A stretch of 30,696 bases of DNA from a virus, in IMG/VR virus record IMGVR_UViG_3300042294_001965, positions 1 to 30,696 of that record. One strand, written 5' to 3'. Both the position numbers and the translations under genes were made by a program. This document shows, in pieces, positions 7,117-28,037 of the stretch (the first letter of the stretch is position 1; every line of letters begins with the position of its first letter). The notes under the pieces were generated by a model, which worked only from the letters and a program-made list of their open reading frames with translations, did not search any database and was not told the origin of the DNA.

Positions 7117-8478
7117 TTATCTGAACCCGCGGTAAGCATAGATCTTGCCGGCGGCATCGACGGCCGCGCTGGCGCTGCCGCCTGATCCCGTGTCGCCCTT
7201 CGAGGCCAAGAGATCCCATTCGGTGGTCGCCGTGGCGGGATTCGAGCCCGGCACGGTGGTATCGGCGATGCAGATGTAACTTGAGCCGTTGTACTCCACG
7301 GCATCGTTCACGTAGTAGAAGGTGGTCGTGCCGGCCCAAGTACCTTGCCACACCAGGCCGGCGGGCCCGGTAGCTCCTGTCGGCCCTGTAGCTCCTGTCG
7401 GCCCTGTGGCTCCTGTCGGCCCAGTCGCTCCGGTGGGTCCAGTCGCGCCGGCCGGCCCGGTTGCACCAGCCGGCCCGGTCGCGCCGGTTGGTCCAGTGTC
7501 GCCGGTGAGCCCTGTCGGACCTGTCGCACCGACTGGACCTGTCGCACCAGCCGGGCCGGTCGCACCCGTTGGCCCGATGGATCCAGTCGGGCCCGTGGCG
7601 CCTGCCGGCCCAGTCGCTCCGGTGACGCCTGGCGTGCCCGAGCTCGCCTGCACCACGGTCAGGATCACCGCCGGCGTGGCCGGTCGCGTCGGGCTCGTCG
7701 CCGCCGCCATGTAGTCCAGCGTGATGTCGCTGTCCGTCGCGCTCATCACGATCTCGAAGTAGTCGCCTGCGGCCATGGTGTAGACGAAATTCCACGCCAT
7801 CACCTCGGCGGCGTTGTTTCCCTGAATGGCATAGTCGGTGTTGCTCCGCGGGATGTCGGTCCCGTTGTGCCGGAACCAGACGCTGACGTGCTCGGTGCCG
7901 CCGCTGCTGTGCCGCAGTTGAGCCGAAAACTGGAAGTTGTACGTGCCCGCGTTCGTCACCACCACGCGGCTCAGGGGGCTGCCCAGGCTCACGCCCGTGG
8001 CCTCCTCGGTCGTGTCGTACACCACGGGCGTAGCCGTCGCGTTGCCGATGCTCTGGTCGGCGTTGGCCGTGAACACGCCGTAGTAGCCGCGGGTTGTCAC
8101 CGCCGTAGGCACCTCGAGAACGTCGCCGGTCGTGCCCGTCACCAGCAGCTTGTACTCCACCGTGCCGCTGGTGGTCGTGACCTGGAACCTCACGTACCGG
8201 ATGCCGGCCACGTAGATCGACTCCTTGAGGCCGGCAGAGCTGTAGTCCACGGCGCCCTGCGGCATCGGCCACCAGGTCTCATTGTCATTCGACCCTTGCA
8301 CGCTGATGGTGCCGGCCGCCGAGGCGTCCAATGGCGTCGAGATCTGCGGCCGGATGGTGGCGTAGGCCTGCACGTCGTAGACCAGGCCGCTGTTGATGCT
8401 CGAGAGCACCGCCGCGGGGTCGAACTGATCGACGCCGTTGGTGTTGATCGGGCTGAGGATGTCGGTTCGGATCGGCAT
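7117..8478 (-). CDS. Collagen-like tail fibre with CBM5/12-like module (453 aa)
   Basis: A multidomain fibre. Residues 1-125 form a beta-sandwich with [16 protein letters not shown]; about 130-275 a second beta-rich domain with [15 protein letters not shown]; about 279-373 is an almost unbroken Gly-X-Y collagen repeat dominated by GPTGAT and GPAGAT; about 373-430 is a short module ([34 protein letters not shown]) resembling carbohydrate-binding modules of family 5/12, known to bind chitin or similar glycans. Collagen-like stretches in phage fibres trimerise. The gene lies in the distal tail block, as expected for a host-binding fibre. Repetitive DNA could hide assembly errors in repeat number. 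Confidence 0.8.
7358..7640 (-). repeat. Collagen-like Gly-X-Y coding repeat
   Basis: About 280 bases of degenerate 9-bp repeats encode [12 protein letters not shown] triplets within the tail fibre gene. The repeat is seen at DNA level on both strands, where the antisense reads Pro-Val-Gly/Ala-Pro. Repeat number is prone to slippage and may vary between related phages. Confidence 0.9.
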
Positions 8479-23760: not shown

Positions 23761-23913
23761 TCACTTGTCCTCCAGTGCCCCGGCGGCGTCGGTGGCCGCT
23801 CTGGCTCTCGCCAACTCTCCTTCGCTTGCATCGTCGTCGTACCAGCCGCTTCGCCACGCCTTCACCTCGGCACGCAGCACGGTGATGATCTTGTCCTTAT
23901 CGGTGTCGGTCAC
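23761..23913 (-). CDS. Hypothetical small protein (50 aa)
   Basis: GTG start at 23913 overlaps the stop of the preceding 109-aa gene (GTGA). Starts MTDTDKDKIITVLRAEVKAW, continues with WYDDDASEGELARARAATD and ends GALEDK. The composition and end resemble the 89-aa coiled-coil protein at 25453 (EVTAWRDAD, ends ALQRAKEDK), suggesting a shortened relative. Followed by a gap (23700-23760) with hairpin and palindrome. Function unknown. Confidence 0.6.
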   Translation of the reverse strand: MTDTDKDKIITVLRAEVKAWRSGWYDDDASEGELARARAATDAAGALEDK

Positions 23914-24239
23914 TTCAGCACCTCCCGCCACTTCGACTCGTCGCAGTCGATGTACATGACCACGCTGCCCTTGTGGGCACGCACGACGCCGCACGAATCG
24001 AGCACCGTGTCCTTGGTCGGGCCACCCAACGCGATCTCGCCAAGGCCCTTCGTCGTGCCCCACACGCGAACCACGCTGGCGTTTCCGATGGTCACGTCGT
24101 CGCCGCTGATCGCCACCATGCCGACGACAACCCAACCGCGTTGCAGCACCACGATCTGGAGTCCCTGCTGCGTGATGTTGTCGCTCTCAACGCCGAGAGC
24201 CTTGTTCACTGCCGTTTCGATTGCCTTCTGAATCAACAT
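23910..24239 (-). CDS. Duplicated hypothetical protein, copy B (109 aa)
   Basis: Shows MLIQKAIETAVNKALGVES at the start, a beta-rich centre (LQIVVLQRGWVVVGMVAISG, VRVWGTTKGLGEIALGG), and a C-terminal RAHKGSVVMYIDC. It differs from copy A (24501-24830) at about 11 residues, mostly conservative apart from the last five, showing a recent tandem duplication. The ATG follows a GTGAGTGAGGA site behind a GCGGC hairpin. Unrecognised; the beta-rich core might be a small sandwich. Intact reading frames in both copies suggest that both are expressed. Confidence 0.72.
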   Translation of the reverse strand: MLIQKAIETAVNKALGVESDNITQQGLQIVVLQRGWVVVGMVAISGDDVTIGNASVVRVWGTTKGLGEIALGGPTKDTVLDSCGVVRAHKGSVVMYIDCDESKWREVLK

Positions 24240-24268: not shown

Positions 24269-24481
24269 TTAGTAACCAATGCCGTTGCCGTCGCCGTAGC
24301 TGTAGCCGTTGCCGCAGCCGTAGCCGTCGCCGTAGCTGTAGCCGTTGCCGTAGCCGTTGCCGTAGCCGTTGCTGTAGCCGTAGCCGTCGCCGTAGCTGTA
24401 GCCGTTGCCGTAGCCGTTGCCGTAGCCGTCGCCGTTGCCGTAGCCGTAGCCGATCAGACTGTGTGCATCTTCGTTTGTCAC
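24269..24481 (-). CDS. Gly-Tyr-rich dipeptide repeat protein, copy B (70 aa)
   Basis: GTG start at 24481 with AAGGAGG 4 bases upstream, in the duplicated unit. After MTNEDAHSLI the protein is almost only Gly-X dipeptides with X = Tyr, Asn or Asp, interrupted by a few Ser, Cys and Ile, ending GDGNGIGY. Low-complexity, probably disordered or self-associating. Copy A is 60 aa, so repeat number differs by 10 residues. The X codons TAC, AAC and GAC differ only in the first base. Whether it is translated is uncertain, but the start site and frame are conserved in both copies. Confidence 0.6.
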   Translation of the reverse strand: MTNEDAHSLIGYGYGNGDGYGNGYGNGYSYGDGYGYSNGYGNGYGNGYSYGDGYGCGNGYSYGDGNGIGY

Positions 24482-24500: not shown

Positions 24501-24830
24501 TCAGAGCAACTTGCCAGCCCACTTCGATTCCACGCAGTCGATGTACATGACCACGCTGCCCTTGTGGGCACGCACGACGCCGCACGGGTCGAGCACCGTG
24601 TCCTTGGTCGGGCCACCCAACGCGATCTCGCCGATGCCCTTCGTCGTGCCCCACACGCGAATCACGCTCGCGTTGCCGATGGTCACGTCGTCGCCGCTGA
24701 TGGCCACCATGCCGACGACAACCCAACCACGCTGCAACACCACGATCTGAAGTTTCTGCTGCGTGATGTGGTCGGTCTCCACGCCAAGAGCCTTGTTCAC
24801 TGCCGTTTCGATTGCCTTCTGAATCAACAT
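24501..24830 (-). CDS. Duplicated hypothetical protein, copy A (109 aa)
   Basis: Same length and near-identical sequence as copy B (23910-24239), with changes such as S/T, N/H, G/K, V/I, L/I, S/P, D/V and a different last five residues (AGKLL for REVLK). The preceding hairpin and ribosome binding site are identical too. The end is followed by a remnant of the 104-aa gene's 3' end containing GGGCGAAGGAGGCCAAGTGA, which supplies the next gene's ribosome binding site. Function unknown. Confidence 0.72.
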   Translation of the reverse strand: MLIQKAIETAVNKALGVETDHITQQKLQIVVLQRGWVVVGMVAISGDDVTIGNASVIRVWGTTKGIGEIALGGPTKDTVLDPCGVVRAHKGSVVMYIDCVESKWAGKLL

Positions 24831-24859: not shown

Positions 24860-25042
24860 TTAGTAACCAATGCCGTTGCCGTCGCCGTAGCTGTAGCCGT
24901 AGCCGTAGCCGTCGCCGTAGCTGTAGCCGTTGCCGTAGCCGTTGCCGTAGCCGTTGCCGTTGCCGTCGCCGTAGCCGTTGCCGTTGCCGTCGCCGTCGCC
25001 GTAGCCGTAGCCGATCAGACTGTGTGCATCTTCGTTTGTCAC
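24860..25042 (-). CDS. Gly-Tyr-rich dipeptide repeat protein, copy A (60 aa)
   Basis: GTG start overlaps the 104-aa gene's stop (GTGA), with AAGGAGG inside that gene's 3' end as the ribosome binding site. MTNEDAHSLI is followed by Gly-X repeats with X = Tyr, Asn, Asp, ending GDGNGIGY. Shorter than copy B by 10 codons. Gly-Tyr-rich low-complexity peptides can self-assemble, but no function is known here. Confidence 0.6.
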   Translation of the reverse strand: MTNEDAHSLIGYGYGDGDGNGNGYGDGNGNGYGNGYGNGYSYGDGYGYGYSYGDGNGIGY

Positions 25043-25741: not shown

Positions 25742-26746
25742 TCACCAGCCACAGTCCACGGCCGTGGCATCATCCTCGTCCTTGATCTCGATCCGCTTGA
25801 TCCAGCCCTTCACGTCGATGGTCAGGCTGGTCGGGTTGAGCATGACACTGAGCTTTCGGCCGGCGGCCACGCCGTCGCGGCACTTGAGCACCCTGAGCAC
25901 TCGCACCATGTCCTGGTGCCGGTCCTCGGTCTCCGTCCCGTCCCACCGCCGCTTGCCGAACACCACGTGAGTCTCGGGCCGCTCGCGGCGCTCAAGCCAG
26001 AGCACCACGTCGGTGAACCGGCTGATGGCGGCGCCGCCGGCCAGCACCTCCATCGAGATCTCGGTCTTGCGGCCCTTCTTGGGATGGGTCACCAGCCACC
26101 CGGCGGCATGGTGCCGCTCGAGCAGACGCCGCAGGCCGGTGATGAGGTTCTGGTCGTCTTCCCACGGCTTCTCGCTGGGCTGCATGGCGGTGATCGGGTC
26201 GATGGCCAGCACCTTGACGCCCTGCTCGAGCTTGGCCTGAGCCCACCGCAGCACGTCGCGGTGCGTCAGGAGCTTGCCATCGGCCACGTCCATGACGTTG
26301 CCCAGGCTGTTGAGGCTGCTGCGGTGCAGGTTCATGAGGCTGCGGATGCGCTCGGGGTTGGCCGCGATCCAGTCGAGGTTGGTGACCTGCGGCTCGCTCG
26401 AGAGCTGGGCGAGGTACCGCATCAGGTGCCACTCGCGGGTGCACTCAAGCTCGAGCAGCGCCACGGGCACGCCGGCACGATGGGCATGGGCCATCAGCTG
26501 CAGCACCAGGAAGCTCTTGGCGCTGCCGGGGTCGCCGCACACCACGTTGATCGTGCCAGGCATGGCCGCCTTGATGTCGTCGAACGCCGGCCAGGGCGTG
26601 GCCACCGGCCTGATGGTTCCGTCGATGATGCCGTCAATACGGCCGGTCATCAGGTCCGCCGGGGACCGGTGCTTGGCTAGGTTCTCCTCGATGGCCTTGC
26701 GGTCCACCCAGGACGGAAAGTCATTCCAGTCATTCGGCACGTTCAC
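25742..26746 (-). CDS. RecA-fold ATPase / DnaB-like helicase-type protein (334 aa)
   Basis: The GTG at 26746 overlaps the preceding stop (GTGA). Walker A GDPGSAKS (71-78) and Walker B VKVLAIDP (Asp183) with LLELECTREWHLMRYL in between belong to the RecA/AAA_25 (RepA-like) family of hexameric helicases or helicase-like ATPases. The later WLVTHPKKG and RFTDVVLWLERRE segments match the sensor strands of such ATPases. It is shorter than DnaB and lacks its N-terminal domain; the adjoining 174-aa protein may provide that. Likely replicative helicase or loader acting with the initiator upstream. Confidence 0.82.
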   Translation of the reverse strand: MNVPNDWNDFPSWVDRKAIEENLAKHRSPADLMTGRIDGIIDGTIRPVATPWPAFDDIKAAMPGTINVVCGDPGSAKSFLVLQLMAHAHRAGVPVALLELECTREWHLMRYLAQLSSEPQVTNLDWIAANPERIRSLMNLHRSSLNSLGNVMDVADGKLLTHRDVLRWAQAKLEQGVKVLAIDPITAMQPSEKPWEDDQNLITGLRRLLERHHAAGWLVTHPKKGRKTEISMEVLAGGAAISRFTDVVLWLERRERPETHVVFGKRRWDGTETEDRHQDMVRVLRVLKCRDGVAAGRKLSVMLNPTSLTIDVKGWIKRIEIKDEDDATAVDCGW

Positions 26747-27267
26747 TTGGTCACCTCCTCGCCGGGGTTCCAGACCCACGGCCCGGTATGTTGTGGCGTC
26801 CAAGCGGCGAAGGCAAGCAGCTCGGCACCGTGCAACGCATCCTTGTCGGCCTTGCCCTCCTCGATCCGCTTGGCAATGTGCCGAAGCACTTGCGGTGCCC
26901 ACCGGTCTAGCCGGCGGCGTGCCGCACGCTGGAAGGCCATCAGCCTGCCCTCAAAGCCCGGCATGCCGCTGTAGTACATGGCCGCGGTGAAGAGCGTGCG
27001 GTGCGGTGCGCAGTGATCTGGCAGGGGCCGCTCGATCACGGCCATGTGCCTGACCGATTCGTGCACGTTCGAGCCAAGCAGCAGCGCGTCGTAGAGCTCC
27101 TGGAGCCGCGGGTGGCTCATCACGTCGCTCGAGATGCCCATGCGGCGGGCCCAGAGCCTCACAGTCTCGTCGCCAGTCAGCAGGGTGGCCAGGATTGTCA
27201 CCTCTTCGGGCTCAATGGCTGCCGGCTTGGTGGCGGTCACGGTGGGCATGGTCTTGGTGGTCGTCAT
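26743..27267 (-). CDS. Hypothetical replication partner protein (174 aa)
   Basis: After a Thr/Lys-rich N-terminus the sequence EPEEVTILATLLTGDETVRLWARRMGI has the look of the first helices of a DnaB N-terminal domain (E-x-x-L-x-LL), then a basic helical region. Lies between the initiator and the RecA-fold ATPase with ATGA and GTGA overlaps, so the three are translated together. I suggest it serves as N-terminal-like or loader partner of the ATPase, inferred only from context and a weak pattern. Confidence 0.62.
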   Translation of the reverse strand: MTTTKTMPTVTATKPAAIEPEEVTILATLLTGDETVRLWARRMGISSDVMSHPRLQELYDALLLGSNVHESVRHMAVIERPLPDHCAPHRTLFTAAMYYSGMPGFEGRLMAFQRAARRRLDRWAPQVLRHIAKRIEEGKADKDALHGAELLAFAAWTPQHTGPWVWNPGEEVTK

Positions 27268-28037
27268 TCGGGGATCTCCGGGCTGGGTGGGTCATTGGCC
27301 CACAGACGCTGATTCAGGTAAGTCGTGGTGTGCTGCACATACCCATCCTGCCACTTCTTGCTCTTGATGTACTTCTCGAGGTTCAGCATGATGTGCTCGA
27401 CCAGGCTGGGCTTTCCCGGCTCGGTTGGCCGTTCGATCTGGTCTCGTTGCCAATAGCCAAAGGCCTTTACCTTGGCATGGCGACCAGCCCGCGGGTACCG
27501 CGCCCAGAACCGGTTGAACGCCTCGGAGTACGCCGGGATGAGCTTGGGGGGCTCTTCGCCCGCGTCCCCCTTGGGGGGACTATGGGGGGATTTCTTACTC
27601 TTCTCTTCTCTTCTCTTCTCTGGTGCGCATTCTGTGCGCGAGTTGTGCGCACCAGTTGCGCACATTCTGCGCACACGTGTCTGGGCTGCATGATCGGCCC
27701 GACGCTTGGCCCCCATTCCGTTGTGGATGTCGAAGTCTCGCATCTCCAGACCTTTATCGGTCTGCGTGAGCCAGCCGACGCTGCCCATGGCATTGGAAAA
27801 GCCAGGGATTCCCACCAGCTCATCGACGGTCTGGAGGCTGTAGCCCTCGAGGATTCCGTCGCGGCTGTGGGCGTCAAAGAGGCTCCACACCTGGTGCAGC
27901 GCACCGACAACCATGCACCGCTGCGCACTTGCCGCGCACCCATCGCGCACAAGCTGCGCACAAACTGCGCACACAATGCGCACCACCTTCGGGTGCGTGT
28001 GCAGGTTCACCCGCACCTTGATCCAGTCATCTGCCAT
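27264..28037 (-). CDS. Replication initiator-like protein containing the iteron arrays (257 aa)
   Basis: MADDWIKVRVNLHTHPKVVRI is a typical N-terminus of phage replisome organiser/initiator proteins (winged-helix type). LEGYSLQTVDELVGIPGF and GVGWLTQTDKGLEMRDFDI continue the DNA-binding domain. A basic linker (PEKRREEKSKK) leads to a C-terminal region (FWARYPRAGRHAKVKAFGYWQRDQ, YVQHTTTYLNQRLWAND) shared by many such proteins. Two clusters of 11-bp repeats lie inside this gene, coding a Cys-rich stretch at about residues 18-40 and CATGAHNSRTECAPE at about 120-138. As in lambda O, the origin lies inside the gene of its binding protein. Confidence 0.82.
   Translation of the reverse strand: MADDWIKVRVNLHTHPKVVRIVCAVCAQLVRDGCAASAQRCMVVGALHQVWSLFDAHSRDGILEGYSLQTVDELVGIPGFSNAMGSVGWLTQTDKGLEMRDFDIHNGMGAKRRADHAAQTRVRRMCATGAHNSRTECAPEKRREEKSKKSPHSPPKGDAGEEPPKLIPAYSEAFNRFWARYPRAGRHAKVKAFGYWQRDQIERPTEPGKPSLVEHIMLNLEKYIKSKKWQDGYVQHTTTYLNQRLWANDPPSPEIPE
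27564..27580. promoter_or_regulatory. GC-rich hairpin beside the origin tract
   Basis: GTCCCCC and GGGGGAC are separated by 3 bases (TTG), a perfect 7-bp stem. A run of G follows. It flanks the pyrimidine tract on the side away from the iterons. It is within coding DNA but the symmetry is nearly perfect; a possible primer or structure element of the origin. Confidence 0.4.
27591..27620. repeat. TTCTC pentamer tract, possible unwinding element
   Basis: Four exact TTCTC pentamers (27601-27620) preceded by TTTCTTACTC form a 30-base pyrimidine strand, among the lowest-GC stretches here. It abuts the first iteron array (starts 27624). Strand-asymmetric AT-richer tracts next to iterons often serve as DNA unwinding elements. 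Confidence 0.5.
27624..27678. repeat. Iteron array 1: five 11-bp repeats, core TGCGCA
   Basis: TGCGCA (one TGCGCG) starts at 27624, 27635, 27646, 27657 and 27668, an exact 11-bp phase. The last three continue as TGCGCAC. Because 11 is not a multiple of 3 the unit passes through all reading frames of the gene, so the periodicity is not a codon effect. The phase of about one helical turn places the sites on the same face of DNA. Confidence 0.8.
27922..27987. repeat. Iteron array 2: six 11-bp repeats, core YGCGCAC
   Basis: Hexamers TGCGCA, CGCGCA, CGCGCA, TGCGCA, TGCGCA, TGCGCA start at 27922, 27933, 27944, 27955, 27966 and 27977, again exactly 11 bp apart, each followed by C. It lies about 245 bp from array 1 and near the 5' end of the same initiator gene. 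Likely initiator-binding iterons or, alternatively, autoregulatory sites. Confidence 0.8.

Follow-up and report, generated by a model that had tools for sequence, protein, structure and literature searches.

The window analysed here, meaning the whole stretch of DNA, is a virus record of 30,696 bases with about 66% G+C. The following features of its replication region are discussed below:

27264–28037, minus: replication initiator gene, 257 aa; winged-helix-like N-domain, low-confidence linker and helical C-part (PHROG match, AlphaFold2)
27922–27983, minus: array 2 (N-cluster), six 11-bp-phased sites reading GTGCGC(A/G) on the coding strand; gene nt 55–116
27623–27674, minus: array 1 (linker cluster), five 11-bp-phased sites of mixed orientation; gene nt 364–415
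27580–27621, minus (purines on the coding strand): purine tract with its edge, a candidate DNA-unwinding element; TTCTC pentamers on the plus strand
27564–27580, strand not applicable: hairpin with a 7-bp stem (27564–27570 / 27574–27580) that adjoins the tract
26743–27267, minus: next gene, 174 aa, sharing 4 bp with the end of the initiator gene
25742–26902, minus: RecA/DnaB-C-type replicative helicase-like gene, downstream (PF13481, E 6e-10; PHROG 239; PHROG 19)

In a profile search, residues 1–164 of the initiator protein match PHROG 2509 (E 9.2e-42) and residues 4–253 match PHROG 9474 (E 8.4e-34). An earlier sequence-only reading of this DNA had described the gene as initiator-like, which these matches bear out; judged by its profile hits, it is the replication initiator of the PHROG 2509/9474 phage replication-initiation families. 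The protein has no Pfam family at E ≤ 0.1, and the product of the 174-aa gene matches no family in Pfam, PHROGs or NCBIfam. The helicase-like reading frame as listed overlaps this second gene, and its true start probably lies further in. Three other viral contigs carry an identical initiator gene, with 0 base differences over 774 nt, which makes a local assembly error unlikely.

Direct inspection confirmed eleven cores of the form [TC]GCGC[AG], placed in two clusters and exactly 11 bp apart within each, as had been reported. The six sites of array 2 share one orientation (NGCGCAC on the plus strand). Array 1 consists of three GTGCGC(A/G) sites followed by two that read TGCGCAC on the plus strand. 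Although the core motif occurs 32 times in the whole window, no other run of at least three copies at 11-bp phase is found there, in agreement with the expectation of only two arrays genome-wide.

The initiator gene contains nine in-phase pairs of the motif. Neither of two null models came up to this number: shuffling synonymous codons within the gene gave at most 6 pairs in 5000 rounds, and 5000 sequences drawn with the codon usage of 11 ORFs listed for the window gave at most 5, so that the claim that an 11-bp period does not stem from codon structure stands. Array 2 holds an 11-residue in-frame insertion relative to four homologues. The corresponding 33 bp equal three repeat units and are the smallest in-frame gain possible for an 11-bp array.

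Array 1 adjoins the least stable 40 bp of the window (27580–27619), for which nearest-neighbour stacking gives −1.26 kcal/mol per step. The lead is narrow, since the next least stable stretch reaches −1.27; the window mean is −1.61. On the plus strand, the pyrimidine run is unbroken over 24 nt (27598–27621). The sequence-only reading had seen in the tract and the hairpin together something resembling an unwinding element. The tract is real and has the low stability of such an element; the hairpin is equally real, but a part for it in the element gains no clear support, as hairpins at this place are enriched in relatives yet confined to a minority (see below).

A turning point of the GC skew had been expected near 27.6–28.0 kb. 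It is not clear in the cumulative curve, which peaks near 17 kb, declines until about 26 kb and shows no more than a shallow local minimum at 28.0–29.0 kb. The missing clear turn counts against reading the locus as an origin.

Two phased clusters in related initiator genes

Viral and genome contigs were searched at the protein level for relatives, of which we kept 80 of at least 570, 80 of 122 and 80 of at least 566; eight named phages, picked from a protein search, were added to the sample. Of the resulting 252 loci, 240 contained the initiator reading frame by pattern and 12 did not (one of these being the window's own piece, L001). After removal of genes more than 93% identical to an earlier one over the N-terminal 130 residues, 128 representatives remained: 66 from viral contigs, 53 from genome contigs, the eight named phages and the window's gene (L002). 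The loci from genomes belong to Enterobacterales, Pseudomonadales, Burkholderiales, Planctomycetota and others. The repeats of these genes come in several spellings, namely GTCCGC (class A), GTAACG (class B), GTCACG (class C), GTAGAC (class D) and the GTGCGC of the window.

By the sequence-only reading's own terms, repeats that are missing or out of phase in related initiators would have told against it, and the homologues do not show this. Two clear clusters, located in the parts of the gene that encode the N-domain and the linker, were found in 109 of the 128 non-redundant homologues, their sites mostly spaced at 11–12 bp even where the repeat has another sequence; 19 homologues lack two clear clusters. 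Centre-to-centre distances between sites are mostly 11 and 12 bp, with further ones near multiples of these. The N-cluster sits at about gene nt 54–110 in class A and the window, and at 137–195 in classes B, C and D. The linker cluster follows the HNG motif at about nt 333–430. Within the 122 labelled genes, hexamers of the gene's own class reach 7.77/kb, compared with 0.44/kb in the rest of their loci.

The repeats also emerge when the window motif is not used. The most repeated 6-mer of each gene exceeded 100 synonymous shuffles at p ≤ 0.01 in 95 of 128 genes and missed this threshold in 33, while only 4 of 120 downstream control ORFs passed. The two synonymous nulls and these control ORFs together rule out codon structure as the cause of the repeats. 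The 6-mer test alone is not specific, because a run on lambda O chose a scattered, non-iteron word at p = 0.01. Overall, sites fall in all three reading frames, with each class preferring some. We conclude that the repeats reflect selection on the DNA, with kinship still contained in the frame counts. The DNA of the initiator gene would have to provide binding sites whose frame changes and at the same time encode a functional protein.

In the homologues the two clusters lie 200–300 bp apart. Their relative phase is concentrated in class A (R 0.79 at 10.5 bp, among relatives that are not independent) and hardly so in class B (R 0.18). This is consistent with looping between the clusters in class A, and hardly so in class B; here, too, kinship is still in the values.

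The purine tract is a regular neighbour of the linker cluster. The sequence AGAGAAGAGAAGA occurs in the linker of 105 of the 128 genes, adjoining the cluster, and starts in frame 0 in 62 genes, frame 2 in 40 and frame 1 in three (kinship still included). Of the 128 genes, 116 have a purine run of at least 15 in the linker region and one has such a run upstream of the linker. A tract is present in 121 representatives, and in 110 of these it is touched by the gene's least stable 40 bp, compared with about 10% expected from position. A stem of at least 7 bp after the tract was found in 30 of 120 genes; among control windows, the share is 2.9% of 344 taken downstream and 17.3% of 480 from the N-part, the latter containing the iterons. 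The hairpin can thus be ruled out as a universal part of these loci, although it is enriched. The post-tract hairpins measure 7–10 bp and differ in their stems, and several have a taac or tgac loop (e.g. L143, L126, L198).

A scan that used DNA alone, for three GTGCGC heptamers at 11-bp phase in viral contigs, returned 33 stretches, three of which are the contigs with the window's own gene. Eight of the other 30 encode an initiator homologue at E ≤ 1e-4. Four of them (L254, L260, L281, L283) have both clusters in the window's own spelling, L254 and L260 encoding nearly the same protein, and four (L284, L282, L263, L262) have a GTGCGC-type linker cluster only. The remaining 22 lack a match to the initiator profile at E ≤ 1e-4, and at E ≤ 0.01 only L271 (0.009) is added; 14 of these 22 were inspected. 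The heptamer array is consequently not unique to initiators. GTGCGCA arrays at 11-bp phase outside initiator homologues are seen in L253, L255, L264, L265, L270 and L274, three of them on one contig. The more distant homologues L262, L263 and L282 have GTGCGCAC linker clusters, followed by GAGCCA, GCCTAT or CCTGAG hexamers, without a purine tract.

Repeat spelling and the N-domain

In 108 of the 109 genes in which both clusters hold at least two hexamers, the N-cluster and the linker cluster share one spelling. The sole disagreement, L233, results from a tie in its N-cluster. Labels taken from the linker hexamers were placed on an N-domain tree of 131 rows, 125 of which carry a label (few columns, many forks not resolved). 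They require 11 changes of spelling, compared with 49.5 for shuffled labels, none of 200 shuffles being as low. Removal of the columns encoded by the N-cluster left 12 changes, compared with 49.7. Kinship is only partly removed from the frame and tree counts, and part of this co-inheritance is trivial, because the clusters lie in or beside the sequence that codes for the N-domain. In a host table, Burkholderiales hold four spellings and Pseudomonadales three; the table used initial labels, of which nine rows were set by hand and at least one (L137) is wrong. Judged from these comparisons, the spelling follows the phage N-domain, and host order is not the guide.

Natural chimeras tell the same story. 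In ten gene pairs, the C-part after the tract is 62–100% alike in amino acids, while the N-domains are only 34–52% identical and the spellings differ. The clearest pair is L007 (class A) and L216 (class B), whose C-parts agree in 100% of amino acids and 97% of the DNA over 354 nt. Such chimeras suggest a way in which phages swap origin specificity. Because the spelling tracks the N-domain tree and differs within pairs that share a C-part, the N-domain is the likely binder; the sequences point to it as the predicted partner of the repeats.

Two changes on the tree are required to account for the window and the other GTGCGC members, so that this spelling may have arisen twice. We looked for a recognition residue common to the two GTGCGC groups. 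Alignment position 8 was the sole candidate outside residues encoded by the iterons (M in 52 of 53 class A rows; V, V, F and V in four GTGCGC rows), which is too little, and the candidate was rejected. The five natural spellings and their N-domains could offer a way to read the recognition code of this poorly described family of winged-helix-like domains.

AlphaFold2 predictions for 45 relatives give a confident N-domain, with block-mean pLDDT of 83–97 over residues 11–100 and a winged-helix-like order of elements that is similar when the N-domain is predicted alone (42 relatives). The linker, residues 135–167, is of low confidence (block-mean pLDDT of 47–51 over residues 131–170), and the C-part is predicted to be helical. 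Compared with the PDB, the N-domain yields weak matches (best Foldseek E 0.6, best Z 5.3). Among these are 4pql (Z 5.0, rmsd 3.5 over 82 residues), which is level with unrelated winged helices, and the likewise weak 5kbj (Z 4.7) and 4pt7 (Z 4.5), which stand among many tied winged helices. We take these three entries to be N-domains of pSK41-type plasmid Rep; they are listed as a DNA-binding protein, a Rep–DNA complex and an initiator. Predicted viral proteins gave better matches, under names such as primosomal protein 1 (E 6e-5), replisome organizer (E 6.5e-3) and, more weakly, DUF1376 (E 0.05). The C-part of the family alignment profile matches primosomal protein 1 / DnaT chains (6aep, E 2.3e-4). 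The Pfam DnaT family is found in 12 of 45 homologues; it is absent from the window protein.

A probable origin within the initiator gene

The sequence-only reading had compared the locus with phage lambda O, and for geometry the comparison holds: iterons lie inside the initiator gene and are followed by its least stable stretch. In lambda O, the iterons occupy gene nt 349–433 and the least stable 40 bp, with a purine run, nt 436–475. As in the lambda origin and its relatives in Stx phages, the iterons of the window gene lie in the part that encodes the linker, at a near-equal position, and adjoin a purine-rich stretch of unwinding type with the lowest predicted stability. In contrast, lambda has one cluster of four 18-bp sites with starts 20–24 bp apart, while the initiator gene described here has two clusters of heptamers at 11–12 bp. 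Kinship with lambda O was not detected by hhalign of 45 homologues (probability 0.1%, E 0.44) or by BLASTP (E 0.83). In Stx phages, two extra iterons are reported to lengthen O by 13 residues (PMC7466680). The gain of iterons in array 2 is a parallel case, in which the protein is longer by 11 residues.

We infer that the initiator gene very probably contains a lambda-like intragenic origin of replication. The N-terminal winged-helix-like domain would bind the heptamers at their 11-bp phase, on a single face of the helix. Its binding to the linker cluster (array 1) would strain and open the adjoining purine tract, and the C-terminal part, which resembles DnaT in some family members, would recruit a helicase, probably the phage's own RecA/DnaB-type helicase encoded just downstream. 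Some 300 bp away, the N-cluster (array 2) would offer this protein a second set of binding sites, for which loading reservoir, autoregulation and bridging are candidate roles.

The arrays might instead be operators, at which the initiator or another phage regulator blocks transcription within the gene, with the origin lying elsewhere. A protein bound to the N-cluster, so near the gene start, could act as a roadblock, and the lambda origin has a single cluster. Own-class hexamers are somewhat denser in the 300 nt upstream of the genes (0.80/kb) than in the rest of the loci. They are few, however, with 29 hexamers upstream and 753 inside the genes, and an operator has no need of a tract behind the linker cluster that touches the gene's least stable 40 bp in nine-tenths of cases. 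We therefore consider operators unlikely. Binding of the arrays by a host protein is highly improbable: TGCGCA is a palindrome and similar arrays stand outside initiator homologues in other viral contigs, but the spelling tracks the phage N-domain and varies within a single host order, as in Burkholderiales and Pseudomonadales. It is hardly credible that protein constraint or neutral tandem duplication produced the repeats as a by-product, because synonymous-codon nulls fail, spacings of 11 and 12 bp mix the frames and different spellings occupy corresponding places in distant genes, even though three units in the window were gained as a 33-bp in-frame step, as duplication would give.

Beyond the intragenic origin of the window, we tentatively propose a wider reading, which we hold to be plausible if somewhat short of probable. 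These genes may represent an undescribed and widespread family of portable origins, in which a DNA-binding domain and two matching clusters at helical phase would form one cassette within the initiator genes of epsilon15/Rac-type phages. The parts of the cassette would change spelling jointly, and recombination at the conserved purine tract would join them to shared C-parts that recruit the replisome; the upstream cluster would be obligate and would bridge to, or tune, the core origin. The intragenic origin itself yields a predicted origin for many phages and prophages in which the initiator has no more than an annotated name. Among the literature matches listed, in which subscription journals are thinly covered, none described an intragenic origin for initiators of epsilon15, phiPSA1 or the YdaU type.

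A precedent for such an arrangement is found in plasmids. pSK41 Rep is reported to have an origin inside the rep gene, a winged-helix N-domain that binds boxes in the central part of the gene and a C-domain that binds the DnaG primase; in pPR9, N-domain and origin have been swapped naturally on a C-domain that is more than 97% identical (PMC5703833). The loci studied here resemble these RepA_N initiators in that the origin, here predicted from sequence, lies in the initiator gene and is exchanged together with the N-domain on a conserved C-domain. pSK41 Rep differs in having four Rep boxes in one region and in belonging to a plasmid rather than a phage (PMC5703833). The RepA_N domain had no Pfam match in the window protein (E ≤ 0.1) or in the 45 homologues (E ≤ 0.05). 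An iteron plasmid of the Rep_3 type, with iterons of ~20 bp near the rep promoter, was also considered and ruled out, as the sites here measure 6–7 bp and lie at 11-bp phase inside the gene; in pSK639, five 22-bp repeats are reported to stand upstream of rep (PMC5703833).

The Rac prophage offers a specific prediction. Rac is reported to have an active origin, oriJ (PMC3945230). In Rac of E. coli 442/2, the ydaU homologue belongs to class B: GTAACG clusters stand in both regions of the gene, and a purine tract is present. In MG1655, the N-domain of ydaU is a different one (annotated as DUF1376), as are the linker repeats, and the C-part is similar. Side by side, ydaU of MG1655 (L287:8120–8977) and of Rac 442/2 (L286:1228–2016) share the C-part and differ in their N-domains and in their repeats, which read GTTCAA in the former and GTAACG in the latter. 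We predict that oriJ lies within ydaU, which becomes a candidate place for the origin of Rac.

Phage SPP1 is a further system with an origin-binding protein and two sites. Its oriL is presumably located in gene 38. The origin-binding protein G38P, a discrete oriL and a second site, oriR, are described for this phage (PMC3485210), a likeness at the level of description.

Other features of the window

Two further repeat-containing regions were observed in the window. Collagen-like Gly-X-Y repeats occupy 7364–7566, within an ORF at 7117–8478 (minus) whose place would suit a tail protein, which is a guess. Two similar reading frames of 109 aa lie at 23910–24239 and 24501–24830 (minus), each beside a long tandem array of GCCGTA-type hexamers (24281–24452 and 24872–25013). 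The paired frames with their hexamer arrays look like a duplication.
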